Part shown: positions 42,433-49,181 of the stretch, piece after piece
Layout of the letters: each line of letters begins with the position of its first letter
How positions within the stretch are numbered: the stretch's first letter is position 1
DNA from: Sphingobacteriia bacterium
GTDB lineage: Bacteria; Bacteroidota; Bacteroidia; Chitinophagales; Chitinophagaceae
Length of the DNA stretch: 64,000 nt
NCBI GenBank assembly: GCA_947452295.1
Contig: CANGCK010000003.1
Location: forward strand, 1 to 64,000
Direction: 5' to 3'
The notes under the pieces: generated by a model
Told to the model about the DNA's origin: nothing
What the model saw: the letters and a program-made list of their open reading frames with translations, nothing else
Database searches by the model: none
Made by a program: the position numbers and the translations under genes

Positions 42433-45400
42433 TTAGTTGATTACAATTTCATCTGCAAAAATCCAAGCACCGGTACCTGCTGCATGATGCCAATAAGGTG
42501 GTGACTTCATATTATTGCCCACTACCTTTATGTAACGTGCTTTTTGGGATGACAGCAAAGTTGAAAAAAGCTGAATATCATTGATTTTACTTTCTTTGGT
42601 TAAAGGATATTGATTGGGAATGACTGCCACTTTTTCGAAATGCACACCATCAGTAGACACTTCAAATTCAACAGAAGTAGGAAAAAACACTACATGATTG
42701 GTGACTTGCAAAAAAGAAACAGCTATCTTATTAATATTTCTCACTTCTCCCAAGTCTATAACGGCATCCATGGTATCCAAAAATCCAAGCCAATTGGCAT
42801 AAAAACTCCATCCACCAAAAGCACCATCTGTTAATGCCATTGGATTTTCCTTGGCATATTTTACGGGTTTATTTTTTAAAACTACAGCAGTTCCTTTTGC
42901 AAAATTATTGCTGGAGGATGATTTTAGTAAATTCAAATAAGCATTTATATAATCATTGAAAGGCAAACCCATTTCATTCATGATTACAACTTTAGAAGAT
43001 GCTGCGGCGGAGATGAATCTATTCAAGCTTTTAAAAATAGCTGCAGTATCTGTTAATGAATAGGCTCCCTTGTTTAACCGATAGTATTCTAAAGTGGCAA
43101 AGTCTACCCCCATTCTTGCGCTATTAATCCGGTCTATCAATTCGGTGTTATTATTCGCTTTTGTAATTGCAACATCAAATAATGAATTATACTGTTTAAT
43201 ACTGTCTTCATTCAACCAAGAATCAAAACCTTGGGAAGGGTCGCCATATAAAAACAAAAAAAAGTTTGGATTAGTTTTAATGGCATGATGTATTTTATTG
43301 ATATAGGATTTTATTTCATTTCCCGCATCGCCATAATAAGCATGTGTAAATTCTTGTAATAATTTTTCATATGATAAAGAAGGATCCCATAGTAGTTTAG
43401 ACATTAACCAACATCTTAATTCATACAAATCACTCACATTATGACTGTGTTGTTCAAAGATCCAATTTGCATTATTTGCTATAAATAATTCGATATTAGG
43501 TTTAATCGTTTCTAAGTTAGGAAAGGGTGCTAAGAAATTGGTAAATTGAGTGGTGTAATCCCAAATTTGAATAGTTGCACCTAAAGCACCCCATTCTTTT
43601 AAATCACGTTCAAAATCTTTAGATTTTTGAGAAATTGGTGCACTTCTATCACATTCAATTGAGCATAATGTTACCAATACATTGTGTTCTGGTCGTATAT
43701 TTTTAGGTGCTTTTCGAGTATATTGATAAGCTAATGTAGAAATGGTTTTATTGGGAAAAGCACGGGCAATTTTATTCACTAAGCTCAGCATCGAAGCGGC
43801 AGGTGTACCTTCTTTTTCGTCAACACTGTTGCAACGTGCACAAGTACAATATTGGGTATTATCATCTTGACTTACAGATACAACCAACGAAGTGGGATTT
43901 CTTTGAAAAATGGCATTTACAGAATCTTTAATCATTTGAAAAACAGTATCATTACTCAAACACAATTGAGTGGGCAAGCGCTTTCCATTAACCAATGCAT
44001 AGAATTCAGGATTCGTAGCATAATATTTTTTTTGTGGAATAAATCGATTGAAGGTATGCACTCTTGCTTCGGGTGCAAAACCAGGAAATCCTTCGGTTGT
44101 AACTCTTCTCTTTGCAGCAAATATAGGGTTGTCGTAAAATATTTTGGCATGTACTGTTCTGGTTTTTATTGCAGGAGAATAATTATAATTTGCCTTGAGG
44201 TGGATGTTTTTTTGAGTAGGAATATTTTCAACTGTTGGTGTAAGAAATTTGCAATCTAAAAAATCTTCTAACAAAACATAAACAGCCTCTACTGTTTTTA
44301 ATGGACTATTACCAATTATGTGCAACGAGTTACTATTGGAAATAATAGTATAATCTTGCTTACTGTACAAATCATAATAAGGAGAAGCTTTACCAATATA
44401 AATTGCAGGTTGATTAGTAGAATTGTTCCTTACAATTGGCAAGGAAGCACCCGATATTTTAAACAAATATTTTTTCAATTCCAATGCAGCTTGCATTTCT
44501 AAACTATCTGCAGTTGATTGAACATGAATGGAATATTTTGTAGTGCCCTCATTAATCAGTTTAATCAATTGAGCAGTAGTATCTATTGATATTATTAATT
44601 TAGCACCTTTTGCAAAACGAGCACTCAAGAACCCATTTTTTTCGTTCATCTGTTTTACTATTCCTATATGGGATGTACTATAATTTTTAAAAGGCAACTT
44701 CACTTTAGCAAATCCATCTTTCTCCGCTTCAATGATAATTTTATTGATGATCCCATTTTGTTTATCAGCACTCACTAAAAAAGCACCTTCTGCCCTTAGT
44801 TGATGAAATGATAAATTAGTCCAACTTAATGGCACAGCAGGCATTACTTCGATAAATCCAGCGTATGATTGTAATAACATTTCTTGCAAACCTGCTGCAA
44901 AAGCAAAATTACCTTCTAAAGTAAAAGGACTGTATTGAAATTCGGAATAACCCGACTTCGACTGATCACCATTTAAATGGAAACTGTTAGGAGAACAAAA
45001 AGCTTTAGCAAATATGGTTAATGCTTTAGCTGCGCCAAGCCCATCTTTTGCTCTGGCTTTCAAGTTAGCTAACCAAGAGTATGAGTAACCGCACCAGTAA
45101 GCCGGTCCGATATTATCAAGTAATTGAATAGTATTATTAATAATTTGCTGAGCAGCCTGACCATCTTCCCATTTTATCAAACCCAATGGATGTATAGCCA
45201 TAGCATGTGAAAAATGACGATGAGAAACATTATATGGCAAAGTTGAAGAGAACATTAATTCATGATTGTTCGACAAACTGAATTCGGGAAATTGTTGCAA
45301 CAAGGAGTCCCAATGAGCAGCTTCCTTAGAAAGAGAAAGAGCGGTTGCTAATTCTTTAGCAATAGACAAATTAAATTTCATGAGTGCCAAATCATAATTG

Positions 45401-46860
45401 GTAGTTTCGGTGAACCATGCATTGATGCTATTGTCATTAATTTCTGGACTGGAACTAATGGGCAATTGCCTAAACCCTTTTTTATTTACTATGGTAATAT
45501 TTTCAATGAATTCAGCCACTTCTTTTATCCATGGATATGCACTCTTTTTAAGAAATGCTTTATCCATACTATAACGCCATTGCAAATAAAAATGCTGCGA
45601 CAGCCAAGAAGATACTGTTGGAGAAAGAGCATACTGAATCCATCCACCCATTTCAGTACCATTCAATGAAGTTACACCAGGAACAGCTAGTCCTTCAACT
45701 CCGAAATAAGTTTTAGTATATCTGTTATAATTTTTTTTATGCTGAAGAAGATGGTCTAAGTACCCCATTGCTTCATTCAAATGATTGGAACTATACAATG
45801 GCCAATAACTTAATTGCGTATTCAAATCGTGGTGATAATCTCCTTTCCAAGGTGGAAGCTTCCCATTATCTGCCGTCCAAATTGCCTGTAAAGAAATAGG
45901 TGGGGCTCCACTTCTAGCTGTTGACCCTAATTTATATTGTTCTAAATACCATTGTTTTTCAATTAGGGCATCGGGTAGATGTATAGCGGACTGATTCCAA
46001 TATTTTTTCCACCAGTTTGTATGAGCGTCATAATCGGCTTCAAAACCTTTTAATAGATGAGTAGCAAGAAAAATACTGTCTTGAATAGGTTGTTTGAATG
46101 AAGAATTACTGGAAGAGATGGTCCATACACCTTCTATACTATTATTTACTTTTTTCCATTGAATACTCACGCGATAAAAAAAACCGTTCCACCCTTTTTG
46201 ATAATAGTTGATAGACTGGGCATTTTCAGTAACCATACCTTGTTGATACCCTAGTCTTGCCAAATCGTCACCACCCACAACATCTCCTTTAGTATTTACA
46301 ACACCATTGTATAGAGGTGGAATTATTTTGACAACAAAATTGGGAGGTACATTATCGAACTTAAACCATCCAATTGGAGCTGTAGCATGCACAAAACTTT
46401 TTAATTGAATTCCTTTATCCCATTTAACCATTGTGGTGGCTGTAAATAAATCAAGTTGGGCATTTGTAGCATTACCCCAATGTTTAACATCAAATTCAAT
46501 GGCAGCACCGGGTATTTTAGATGGCGCAGGTTCTCTATCATATGGGGCATCTAATTGGTCTTGTACCGGTTTATACTCGTTTTTAAACACCTGATCTTTT
46601 ACCCAGTTATAATTAAACTGATCTATTTGAAAGCCTTTCATTGGACGTTCATCCCATAAATCTGCTCTATCCAATGAAAATCGCAAATGATCATTTTTCT
46701 TCCAAACTAATTCGCCTAACAAACCATTACCCATTGGTAATCCTTGATCCCATTGTGTGGGCAATGCATTAAAATGAAGTTTCTGATAAAAAGGTTGAGC
46801 ATTTAAAAAATGAACTAGAAAAATCAGACAAAGCAAAAATGTAAAATGTATTTTTTTCAT
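42433..46860 (-). CDS. Multidomain secreted glycoside hydrolase: GH95-like + DUF4838 + F5/8C-like
   Basis: The 1475-residue protein starts with a signal peptide (MKKIHFTFLLCLIFLVHFLNAQ). Residues about 23-765 match GH95 (alpha-L-fucosidase or alpha-L-galactosidase): WDQGLPMGNGLLGELVW, DYHHDLNTQLSYW, SSSPEINDN, YSYSWLANLKARAKDG and FTLEGNFAFAAGLQEMLLQS. Residues about 775-890 resemble the N-terminal domain of GH67-like enzymes (ALELKKYLFKISG). Residues about 895-1310 match DUF4838, with SQDDNTQYCTCARC (Cys1005, 1007, 1010) and QIWDYTTQF. Residues 1325-1475 look like a discoidin/F5-8 type C sugar-binding domain. The usual GH95 active-site Asn and Asp positions read Asp345 and Glu649 here. No SusCD pair or other glycan gene adjoins. 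Confidence 0.85.
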   Translation of the reverse strand: MKKIHFTFLLCLIFLVHFLNAQPFYQKLHFNALPTQWDQGLPMGNGLLGELVWKKNDHLRFSLDRADLWDERPMKGFQIDQFNYNWVKDQVFKNEYKPVQDQLDAPYDREPAPSKIPGAAIEFDVKHWGNATNAQLDLFTATTMVKWDKGIQLKSFVHATAPIGWFKFDNVPPNFVVKIIPPLYNGVVNTKGDVVGGDDLARLGYQQGMVTENAQSINYYQKGWNGFFYRVSIQWKKVNNSIEGVWTISSSNSSFKQPIQDSIFLATHLLKGFEADYDAHTNWWKKYWNQSAIHLPDALIEKQWYLEQYKLGSTARSGAPPISLQAIWTADNGKLPPWKGDYHHDLNTQLSYWPLYSSNHLNEAMGYLDHLLQHKKNYNRYTKTYFGVEGLAVPGVTSLNGTEMGGWIQYALSPTVSSWLSQHFYLQWRYSMDKAFLKKSAYPWIKEVAEFIENITIVNKKGFRQLPISSSPEINDNSINAWFTETTNYDLALMKFNLSIAKELATALSLSKEAAHWDSLLQQFPEFSLSNNHELMFSSTLPYNVSHRHFSHAMAIHPLGLIKWEDGQAAQQIINNTIQLLDNIGPAYWCGYSYSWLANLKARAKDGLGAAKALTIFAKAFCSPNSFHLNGDQSKSGYSEFQYSPFTLEGNFAFAAGLQEMLLQSYAGFIEVMPAVPLSWTNLSFHQLRAEGAFLVSADKQNGIINKIIIEAEKDGFAKVKLPFKNYSTSHIGIVKQMNEKNGFLSARFAKGAKLIISIDTTAQLIKLINEGTTKYSIHVQSTADSLEMQAALELKKYLFKISGASLPIVRNNSTNQPAIYIGKASPYYDLYSKQDYTIISNSNSLHIIGNSPLKTVEAVYVLLEDFLDCKFLTPTVENIPTQKNIHLKANYNYSPAIKTRTVHAKIFYDNPIFAAKRRVTTEGFPGFAPEARVHTFNRFIPQKKYYATNPEFYALVNGKRLPTQLCLSNDTVFQMIKDSVNAIFQRNPTSLVVSVSQDDNTQYCTCARCNSVDEKEGTPAASMLSLVNKIARAFPNKTISTLAYQYTRKAPKNIRPEHNVLVTLCSIECDRSAPISQKSKDFERDLKEWGALGATIQIWDYTTQFTNFLAPFPNLETIKPNIELFIANNANWIFEQHSHNVSDLYELRCWLMSKLLWDPSLSYEKLLQEFTHAYYGDAGNEIKSYINKIHHAIKTNPNFFLFLYGDPSQGFDSWLNEDSIKQYNSLFDVAITKANNNTELIDRINSARMGVDFATLEYYRLNKGAYSLTDTAAIFKSLNRFISAAASSKVVIMNEMGLPFNDYINAYLNLLKSSSSNNFAKGTAVVLKNKPVKYAKENPMALTDGAFGGWSFYANWLGFLDTMDAVIDLGEVRNINKIAVSFLQVTNHVVFFPTSVEFEVSTDGVHFEKVAVIPNQYPLTKESKINDIQLFSTLLSSQKARYIKVVGNNMKSPPYWHHAAGTGAWIFADEIVIN

Positions 46861-47812: not shown

Positions 47813-47836
47813 GAAAAACAAACACTTGATTTTTTT

Positions 47837-47872
47837 AAAGGCGTGCCAATTAATTGGCACGCCTTTATTTTT
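47837..47872 (+). terminator. Intrinsic terminator after the barrel gene
   Basis: A perfect 30-nt palindrome, AAAGGCGTGCCAATT followed by its complement (47837-47866), leads into ATTTTTA. Confidence 0.85.
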
Positions 47873-47995
47873 ATCTAATAATTCAGACCTTTTACTTCAT
47901 TTTCTTAGCGTATCAACTCATTGAACGTATATGTTTCCAATCCAATACTTAACTAATGAATTAATTAGTTAATTTGTAATCATAAATAATCTCTA

Positions 47996-48331
47996 ATGAA
48001 ATATTTTTTAATCATAGTATTTAGTCTTTTTTGCATTAAAAACATACATGGACAAAAAGTTTATAGTGTTGAGTACGAGCCGCAAGCAGATGTAAAAATA
48101 TATGTTGTACAATATGAAAATCAGGCAGATTTAAAAGTATTTAAAGTACAATATGAAAATCAAGCTGGTCAAAACAATGGCAAATGGTATTTTACAAAAT
48201 ATCTAAATCAGGCTGAGAAGAAAATATATTTTGTACCCTATGAAAATCAGGCTGATGTAAAAGTATATTTTGTTAAATATGAAAATCAAGCAGGTTGGAG
48301 AAATAATTCAAAAAAACATTTTTTATTTTAA
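47996..48331 (+). CDS. Secreted DUF6150-family repeat protein (candidate septoil-knot fold)
   Basis: The 111-residue protein has a signal peptide (MKYFLIIVFSLFCIKNIHGQ) followed by six repeats of 12-13 residues (21-32, 33-45, 46-58, 63-74, 75-87, 88-100) of the type VKVYFVKYENQAD, ending AGWRNNSKK. Each repeat is a hydrophobic beta-strand followed by a YxNQA turn; a short QNNGK insertion separates repeats three and four. The pattern matches DUF6150, which I recall as Pfam 'septoil knot', a domain predicted and then shown to fold with a 7_1 knot. No function is known for the family. The gene is isolated, with its own 5' and 3' flanks. Confidence 0.82.
   Translation: MKYFLIIVFSLFCIKNIHGQKVYSVEYEPQADVKIYVVQYENQADLKVFKVQYENQAGQNNGKWYFTKYLNQAEKKIYFVPYENQADVKVYFVKYENQAGWRNNSKKHFLF
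48058..48300 (+). repeat. In-frame tandem repeats within the DUF6150 gene
   Basis: Six imperfect repeats of 36-39 bp encode the strand-turn unit. Copies around 48114, 48153, 48237 and 48276 share the core tatgaaaatca. They are coding repeats that have diverged at silent positions (CAGGCAGAT, CAAGCTGGT, CAGGCTGAT), so they are old and not a recent slippage. Confidence 0.75.
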
Positions 48332-48470
48332 TAAATAAAATCAAATAATAAATTATATTAATACAATAATTTTAATAAAAAAAACAAATTCTTAATGTAT
48401 TTTTTATTAAAATTTAATTAATTTCGCTATGTTCATTTTTGAATCATCGGGGGATTATTTTTAAATGAAT

Positions 48471-48499
48471 AAAACCACCAAATTCTGGTGGTTTTTTTT
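48471..48499 (+). terminator. Intrinsic terminator abutting the ung start
   Basis: AAAACCACCA (48471-48480) pairs with TGGTGGTTTT (48486-48495) around AATTC, with T continuing to 48499. The ung ATG at 48507 follows after 7 nt. It is 139 nt downstream of the DUF6150 gene, the only upstream gene it could serve. Confidence 0.75.
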
Positions 48500-48506
48500 A
48501 TTTTGC

Positions 48507-49181
48507 ATGATGGAAGTTAAAATAGAGCCAGGTTGGAAAGAAGTATTAAATAAGGAATTTACAAAGCCTTATTTCAAACAAATTGTGGCACATATTAGAT
48601 CAGAAAAAGCCACCAATGAAACAATCTTTCCTGCAGGGAAACTAATTTTCAATGCTTTTAATACCACACCTTTTGATGAATTAAAAGTAGTAATTATTGG
48701 ACAGGATCCATATCATGGACAAGGTCAAGCACATGGATTAAGTTTTTCAGTACCAGATGGAGTTAAGCCCCCACCTTCTTTGGTCAACATTTTTAAAGAA
48801 TTAAAAGCGGATATTGGTTTATCTTTCCCAACTACAGGAAATTTAACACCATGGGCAAAGCAGGGTGTGTTTTTGTTAAATGCGATTTTAACTGTTCGGG
48901 CAAATGAACCTGCCAGTCATGCTAAAATTGGATGGATGGAATTTACGAATGCTGTTATTCAGAAAATAGCTGAAGAAAAAAAAGGAATTGTATTTGTATT
49001 ATGGGGCAAATTTGCACATGAGAAACAAGTATTCATAGATGCAACAAAACATTATATTTTAAAAGCGGCTCATCCTTCCCCTTTTAGTGCAGATAAAGGT
49101 TTCTTTGGATGTAAACATTTTAGTAAAATAAACGAGTTGCTGATGGGAGAAGGAATTTCTCCTATTGATTGGAATTTATAA
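48507..49181 (+). CDS. ung: Uracil-DNA glycosylase, family 1
   Basis: This enzyme removes uracil from DNA at the start of base-excision repair. The water-activating motif GQDPYHG has its Asp at residue 67, and the minor-groove motif HPSPFSADKGFFGC is near the end. The rest of the 224 residues matches UDG family 1 throughout (LKVVIIGQDPYHGQGQAHG). I choose the ATG at 48507 (or the next one, 48510); a longer frame starting at 48465 would translate through the terminator hairpin and adds residues not seen in the family. plsC follows after 14 nt. Confidence 0.97.
   Translation: MMEVKIEPGWKEVLNKEFTKPYFKQIVAHIRSEKATNETIFPAGKLIFNAFNTTPFDELKVVIIGQDPYHGQGQAHGLSFSVPDGVKPPPSLVNIFKELKADIGLSFPTTGNLTPWAKQGVFLLNAILTVRANEPASHAKIGWMEFTNAVIQKIAEEKKGIVFVLWGKFAHEKQVFIDATKHYILKAAHPSPFSADKGFFGCKHFSKINELLMGEGISPIDWNL

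Follow-up and report, generated by a model that had tools for sequence, protein, structure and literature searches.

The DUF6150 gene and its flanks

The window, by which we mean the whole 64,000-nucleotide stretch that was analysed, carries an open reading frame (ORF) that, judging from its sequence, is a further member of the known family DUF6150, built of six repeats and with a predicted export signal (Table 1). Its best Pfam match is PF19647.4, with a score of 83.4 bits (cut-off 27; E 1.1e-23) and positions 5-98 of the 98-position profile covering residues 16-110. This search bears out the DUF6150 membership that an earlier sequence-only reading had proposed. No second Pfam family rose above its own cut-off, and NCBIfam and PHROGs returned nothing convincing (best PHROG E 0.01). 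The source genome holds a single DUF6150 match.

Table 1. Features of the DUF6150 gene and its immediate flanks (window coordinates)
Feature	Position	Strand	Basis
Terminator-like hairpin	47836..47867	+	between outer-membrane-protein gene and DUF6150 gene
DUF6150 protein gene	47996..48331	+	ORF, 111 codons / 111 aa; Pfam; dN/dS
Predicted signal peptide, residues 1-19; putative cleavage between IHG and Q	47996..48052	+	hydrophobic core, Q position, no lipobox
Repeats 1-3: KVYSVEYEPQAD, KIYVVQYENQAD, KVFKVQYENQAG	48056..48169	+	aromatic spacing
QNNG loop ahead of KW, family-wide	48170..48181	+	G62, W64, 16-residue step
Repeats 4-6: KWYFTKYLNQAE, KIYFVPYENQAD, KVYFVKYENQAG	48182..48295	+	aromatic spacing
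C-terminal tail WRNNSKKHFLF	48296..48328	+	alignment A1
Terminator-like hairpin, downstream	48471..48495	+ (also read on -)	motif scan

Over 92 codons, the dN/dS of the DUF6150 protein against two congeners comes to 0.13 and 0.12, at a dS of 1.2 that is near saturation; five other within-genus pairs give 0.01 to 0.06. By these ratios the gene is under purifying selection, and the ORF, the Pfam score and the dN/dS values show a real, constrained protein. One frame of the reverse complement contains many stops, and no ORF of at least 50 aa overlaps the gene on the minus strand.

The sequence-only reading also gave the gene a regulatory region of its own. This is partly borne out: terminator-like hairpins bound the unit, with three such sites found (the downstream hairpin counted on both strands) against 0.2 expected. 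Promoter-like sites, in contrast, are at chance level, with six found against 7.3 expected, and the one that precedes the gene, at 47854-47882 (10 of 12), shares bases with the upstream hairpin. The stretch 47868-47995 contains no TTG-N20-TANNTTTG site, even with one mismatch allowed, and the upstream DNA aligned convincingly with neither of two congeners. Neither a promoter nor an upstream motif was seen by site scan, pattern search or congener alignment. The uracil-DNA glycosylase ORF that follows (48465-49181, forward strand) has its first ATG, at 48465, just before the downstream hairpin; judged by eye, 48507 or 48510 is the likelier start.

Repeat layout and export signal of the family

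For comparison across the family we started from 115 loci (L001-L115), leaving out L016 (the same protein as L100), L034 (the same as L031), L031 (another architecture) and L026. Ten of the resulting 111 proteins were removed for a low repeat score, giving a set of 101 that includes the window protein and keeps identical pairs such as L003/L071 and L041/L043. Alignment A2 comprises 76 proteins from the 115 loci. In an enlarged set, 22 congeners were added (with L149 out), of which six were removed for low score (L147 among them, through a wrongly chosen ORF) and two as duplicates, giving 115 rows.

Aromatic residues at positions 27, 40, 53, 69, 82 and 95 of the window protein mark six repeats, with steps of 13, 13, 16, 13 and 13 residues. 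The repeat spacing indicates a 3 + 3 layout: three units, a three-residue insertion and three further units. The six strand-turn repeats described earlier are thus present, but the literal motif given for them, VKVYFVKYENQAD, is absent, the nearest form being VKVYFVKYENQAG. The QNNGK loop had been taken for an extra peculiar to the window copy. This claim is refuted: the 16-residue step between repeats 3 and 4 occurs in 98 of the 101 proteins, the window's included (the other three have a 15-residue step), and in a 76-row alignment, which predates the Trp-rewarding row filter, Trp64 is invariant and G62 present in 90% or more of rows. The Trp of the GxW loop is also found in 101/101 rows of the filtered set, a count that is partly circular because the filter rewarded Trp. 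The arrangement of six repeats, three on either side of a GxW loop, is a feature of this set of proteins and not Pfam's definition of the family. In alignment A1 the relatives L009, L010, L011 and L024 stop short of the C-terminal tail.

The position five residues after the aromatic (+5) differs among the repeats. It is Asp or Glu in every protein in repeats 1 and 2 (101/101 each) and in 97/101 in repeat 5, mostly Lys (61/101) or Asp (23/101) in repeat 4, and Gly in repeats 3 (83/101) and 6 (98/101). Because Gly occupies +5 in both repeats 3 and 6, the two halves finish alike.

The N-terminus of the window protein consists of MK, the core LIIVFSLFCI (mean Kyte-Doolittle 3.26) and then IHG followed by Q. 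By simple hydropathy and motif, which we used in place of a trained predictor, all the features of a signal peptidase I substrate are present (n-, h- and c-region, a small residue at -1, no lipobox). Of the 101 proteins, counting the window's, 100 have a hydrophobic stretch at the N-terminus and 98 have Gln directly after the likely cleavage point; Ala precedes this point in at least 77, as counted from the 15 commonest patterns, and none of the 101 has a lipobox. The claim that the protein is secreted accordingly held up as a predicted export signal, and the exported form is the rule among the relatives found and no oddity of the window copy.

Distribution and neighbourhood

With the PF19647 profile, and with the source genome counted each time, DUF6150 is present in 11/60 near genomes, in 20/395 genomes sampled across the phylum (19 of them above the cut-off) and, patchily, in 29/147 genomes of the genus. 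A pattern scan of genome contigs confirmed 411 loci, and the best 80 of these 411 come mostly from Bacteroidota-named records. A match to ung was found in 51/61 genomes, and 30 ung loci were compared. At all 30, ung is followed by an acyltransferase gene, and DUF6150 stands ahead of it at only two (the window and G013), in flanks that measure 143 bases in front at one locus and less than 1.3 kb at some others. Since the gene is patchy within the genus and rarely ahead of ung, it has often been gained, lost or moved.

Across the 82 loci with flanking sequence (the window and 81 relatives), no family of neighbours within four ORFs is found at more than eight. Three families of this frequency belong to a single group of eight loci whose DUF6150 proteins closely resemble one another (L047, L058, L069, L083, L098, L106, L110 and L114). 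There a porZ-like gene precedes DUF6150 by 39-44 bases, and an NMN transporter gene comes directly after DUF6150, followed by the gene for an AAA protein; one member of each family was checked with Pfam. A same-strand gene within 100 bases was seen in front at 32/79 loci and behind at 17/80. Because so many loci have close same-strand neighbours, not every copy forms a solitary unit like that of the window.

At 42433-46860 on the reverse strand, the window encodes a 1475-residue protein in which a GH95-type glycosidase is fused to DUF4838 and F5/8 type C domains. Its C-terminal part has homologues that directly precede DUF6150 in six congeners, in another arrangement; in the window this ORF lies on the strand opposite to the DUF6150 gene, with another gene between. 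Divergent DUF6150 genes lie in close pairs, about 690 bases apart, in G208 (L028 and L033) and also in G466, G533 and G539. The ORF at L031:982-1701 (reverse strand) is built differently: it lacks a signal peptide and encodes five repeats of DUF6150 type, a linker rich in Ser, a single stretch that by eye probably spans the membrane and a domain resembling SH3_3 that scores under its cut-off.

Near-alike copies also appear in records named Sumerlaeota, Anaeromyxobacter, Falkowbacteria, Actinomyces and Polynucleobacter (L062, L066, L094, L101 and L114); these are more likely mis-binned or misnamed metagenome contigs than cases of transfer. Phage records gave no DUF6150 relative. Contigs catalogued as viral gave one (L115:3720-4049), and a second scan of them with another query gave none. 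A Chryseobacterium plasmid ORF (L127:2571-2861), which sits between a LysM protein and dynamin-like GTPases, has a weak likeness to the family by sequence search, and plasmid matches to Borrelia ParA and to Streptomyces were judged to be chance. A search for mobile carriage with the L031 piece had no match; in BLAST, the low-complexity filter may mask matches of so repetitive a query.

Turn residues are alike within most proteins

The residue two positions after the aromatic (+2) is identical across all six repeats in 88 of the 101 proteins, of which 58 are all-Asn and 30 all-Ser. When the letters were shuffled 1000 times, a procedure that ignores relatedness, a mean of 6.7 and a maximum of 14 proteins were all-alike at +2. 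Both Asn and Ser occur at +2 in 10/101 proteins. In pairwise terms, +2 is identical in 85% of repeat pairs within a protein, compared with 42% for the same repeat between proteins (75/76 rows). The likeness persists with the 14 congeners added (101/115) and after thinning to less than 80% identity (21/29). The Asn type is overweighted in these counts because the 80 nearest relatives were chosen by similarity to a query alignment led by the window protein. One protein, L134, has Ser followed by five His at +2 across its six repeats.

The likeness is concentrated at the turn. Among the 29 thinned rows, the between-repeat excess over shuffles is strongest at 0, +1, +2 and +3 (z 16 to 21), smaller at -6, -4, -2 and -1 (z 5 to 12) and absent at -5, -3, +4 and +5, the last two being nearly fixed anyway. 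Strand positions -5 and -3 are specific to the repeat and common to different proteins. This alternation along the strand would fit one face that is alike in all repeats and one that is repeat-specific. No clear pattern emerged as to which repeat pairs agree best.

Recent gene conversion or repeat turnover would make turns alike within one protein, and the excess over shuffles is what such events should leave. We consider this explanation highly improbable. At six positions, codon identity between repeats with the same residue equals the expectation from flanking genes (largest excess 0.043 +- 0.026), and since synonymous codons agree only at this background level, recent conversion is unlikely. 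Moreover, positions -5 and -3 of the very same repeats have not been homogenised, and the ten mixed Asn and Ser proteins also speak against it. The codon test largely refutes recent gene conversion, and speaks to recent events and not to old conversion.

Switches between Asn and Ser recur, and their number is uncertain. With 95 of the 101 rows labelled, we count at least 18 on a protein tree and at least 17 on a DNA tree, both built quickly from short sequences, with masking confined to the +2 columns. Collapsing branches with support below 80 leaves 13 switches in both trees, and collapsing those below 90 leaves four (protein) or seven (DNA). Because so few survive the stricter collapse, the likeness of the turns is partly inheritance. 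What is new here is that most of these proteins carry six like +2 turn residues while their synonymous codons stay at background level, and we regard this likeness as the most useful lead to the role of the DUF6150 protein.

Discussion

We give an even chance to the reading that DUF6150 describes an exported, probably torus-knotted, soluble beta protein with six equivalent turns, for which we infer a role. Sec export and processing by signal peptidase I would yield a soluble protein of the periplasm or the outside. In its mature chain of 92 residues the six 13-residue strand-turn repeats fall into two rounds of three (3 + 3). Ala-Gly, and not Ala-Asp, closes the last repeat of either round, and the GxW loop leads from the first round into the second. 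The chain would pass the membrane unfolded and might then tie itself into a torus-type knot (7_1 or 5_1), and the knotted product may be a small body that resists proteases and denaturants. Most tentatively of all, the six like turns could make up one multivalent surface or one packing ring, and the protein could then be no enzyme but a lasting part of the cell envelope with a binding or structural function.

A more specific form of this proposal is doubtful but worth stating: selection, as opposed to gene conversion, may be what keeps the six turns of the exported, torus-knotted protein alike, as a cooperative array. Such an array could bind a ligand that is itself repetitive, or close like a ring and so lock the knot. 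It would account for a turn residue that switches from all-Asn to all-Ser (and, in L134, is His in five of six) while -5 and -3 stay repeat-specific.

Two further explanations must be weighed against the knotted reading. The exported protein could be an ordinary, unknotted parallel beta-solenoid whose like turns are stacked ladders. Strand-turn repeats with like turn residues are typical of solenoid ladders, and DUF6150 proteins have both these turn residues and 13-residue strand-turn repeats. Two rounds of repeats with like turns would be compatible with a two-turn torus arrangement and with a plain solenoid alike. Against the solenoid, DUF6150 is taken to be the septoil-knot family, and the 3 + 3 layout with its fixed loop is what a closed arrangement of two rounds would give, among other possibilities. 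On balance we think a solenoid rather unlikely. It is far less probable that the type IX secretion system exports the protein as cargo or uses it as a helper, an idea suggested by the porZ-like gene, one of the eight copies being checked with Pfam, that lies close in front of DUF6150 at 8/82 loci. The window protein has no type IX sorting domain in Pfam at E up to 10, and at the other 74 loci, the window included, no porZ-like relative lies within four ORFs on either side, some of these flanks being short.

Like the earlier sequence-only reading, we take DUF6150 (PF19647) to be the septoil-knot family. We judge the window protein to be probably knotted, and the chance that it has a knot of type 7_1 is roughly even. 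The published reference proteins are Q9PR55 of Ureaplasma, the crystallised 7_1 protein (PDB 8IWA; PMC13352647, PMC11223836), of 89 aa with a 7_1 core at 27-83, and P73136, of 112 aa with a predicted 5_1 core at 45-94, a likely Q9PR55 homologue at 48% identity. Both cores are given in PMC9278004, which also contains the prediction of the 7_1 knot. Since these cores span 27-83 and 45-94, a mature chain of 92 residues would be long enough for a knot. The knot type differs within this very pair, and therefore homology, even if real, would not tell which type the window protein has.

Searches of the PDB with five single sequences or probes and three profiles (E up to 10; up to 1 in one) did not list 8IWA, and the copy searched may lack it. 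Unless the chain is missing from that copy, its absence would count somewhat against a link between DUF6150 and the septoil fold. Weak matches to lysostaphin (E 0.0013, no single stretch passing by itself), a short ulvan lyase and an anti-CRISPR protein were put down to chance, as were those to mL80, Rab11 and CelE2, which we judged unrelated. In the literature searched, the word DUF6150 was absent and no protein paper appeared under 'septoil' or 'Septknot'. The available portions of PMC13352647, PMC11223836 and PMC9278004 do not call Q9PR55 DUF6150, and that of PMC11184937 does not mention the family.

Why does it matter whether this family is knotted? Beyond the membrane there is no ATP. A knotted family, if that is what DUF6150 is, would mean that many bacteria send out a chain which has to form one of the most complex protein knots only once it is across the membrane. 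Moreover, the natural all-Asn, all-Ser and mixed versions provide a ready series for testing the stability of the fold and the purpose of the turns.

Compared with the PF19647 profile, the window protein likewise has the standard loop and tail, and its own small differences are Pro at +2 in repeat 1 and Leu at +1 in repeat 4. We presume that it has the same fold as Q9PR55 and P73136, although the PDB searches gave no sequence link between them. The sizes are similarly small, 89 residues for Q9PR55 and 92 for the mature window protein. The Knotted Solenoid fold (PMC13123833) is a knotted, repeat-based bacterial beta protein, as the window protein may also be; its own features are a 3_1 knot, a homodimeric state and a description from Brevundimonas.
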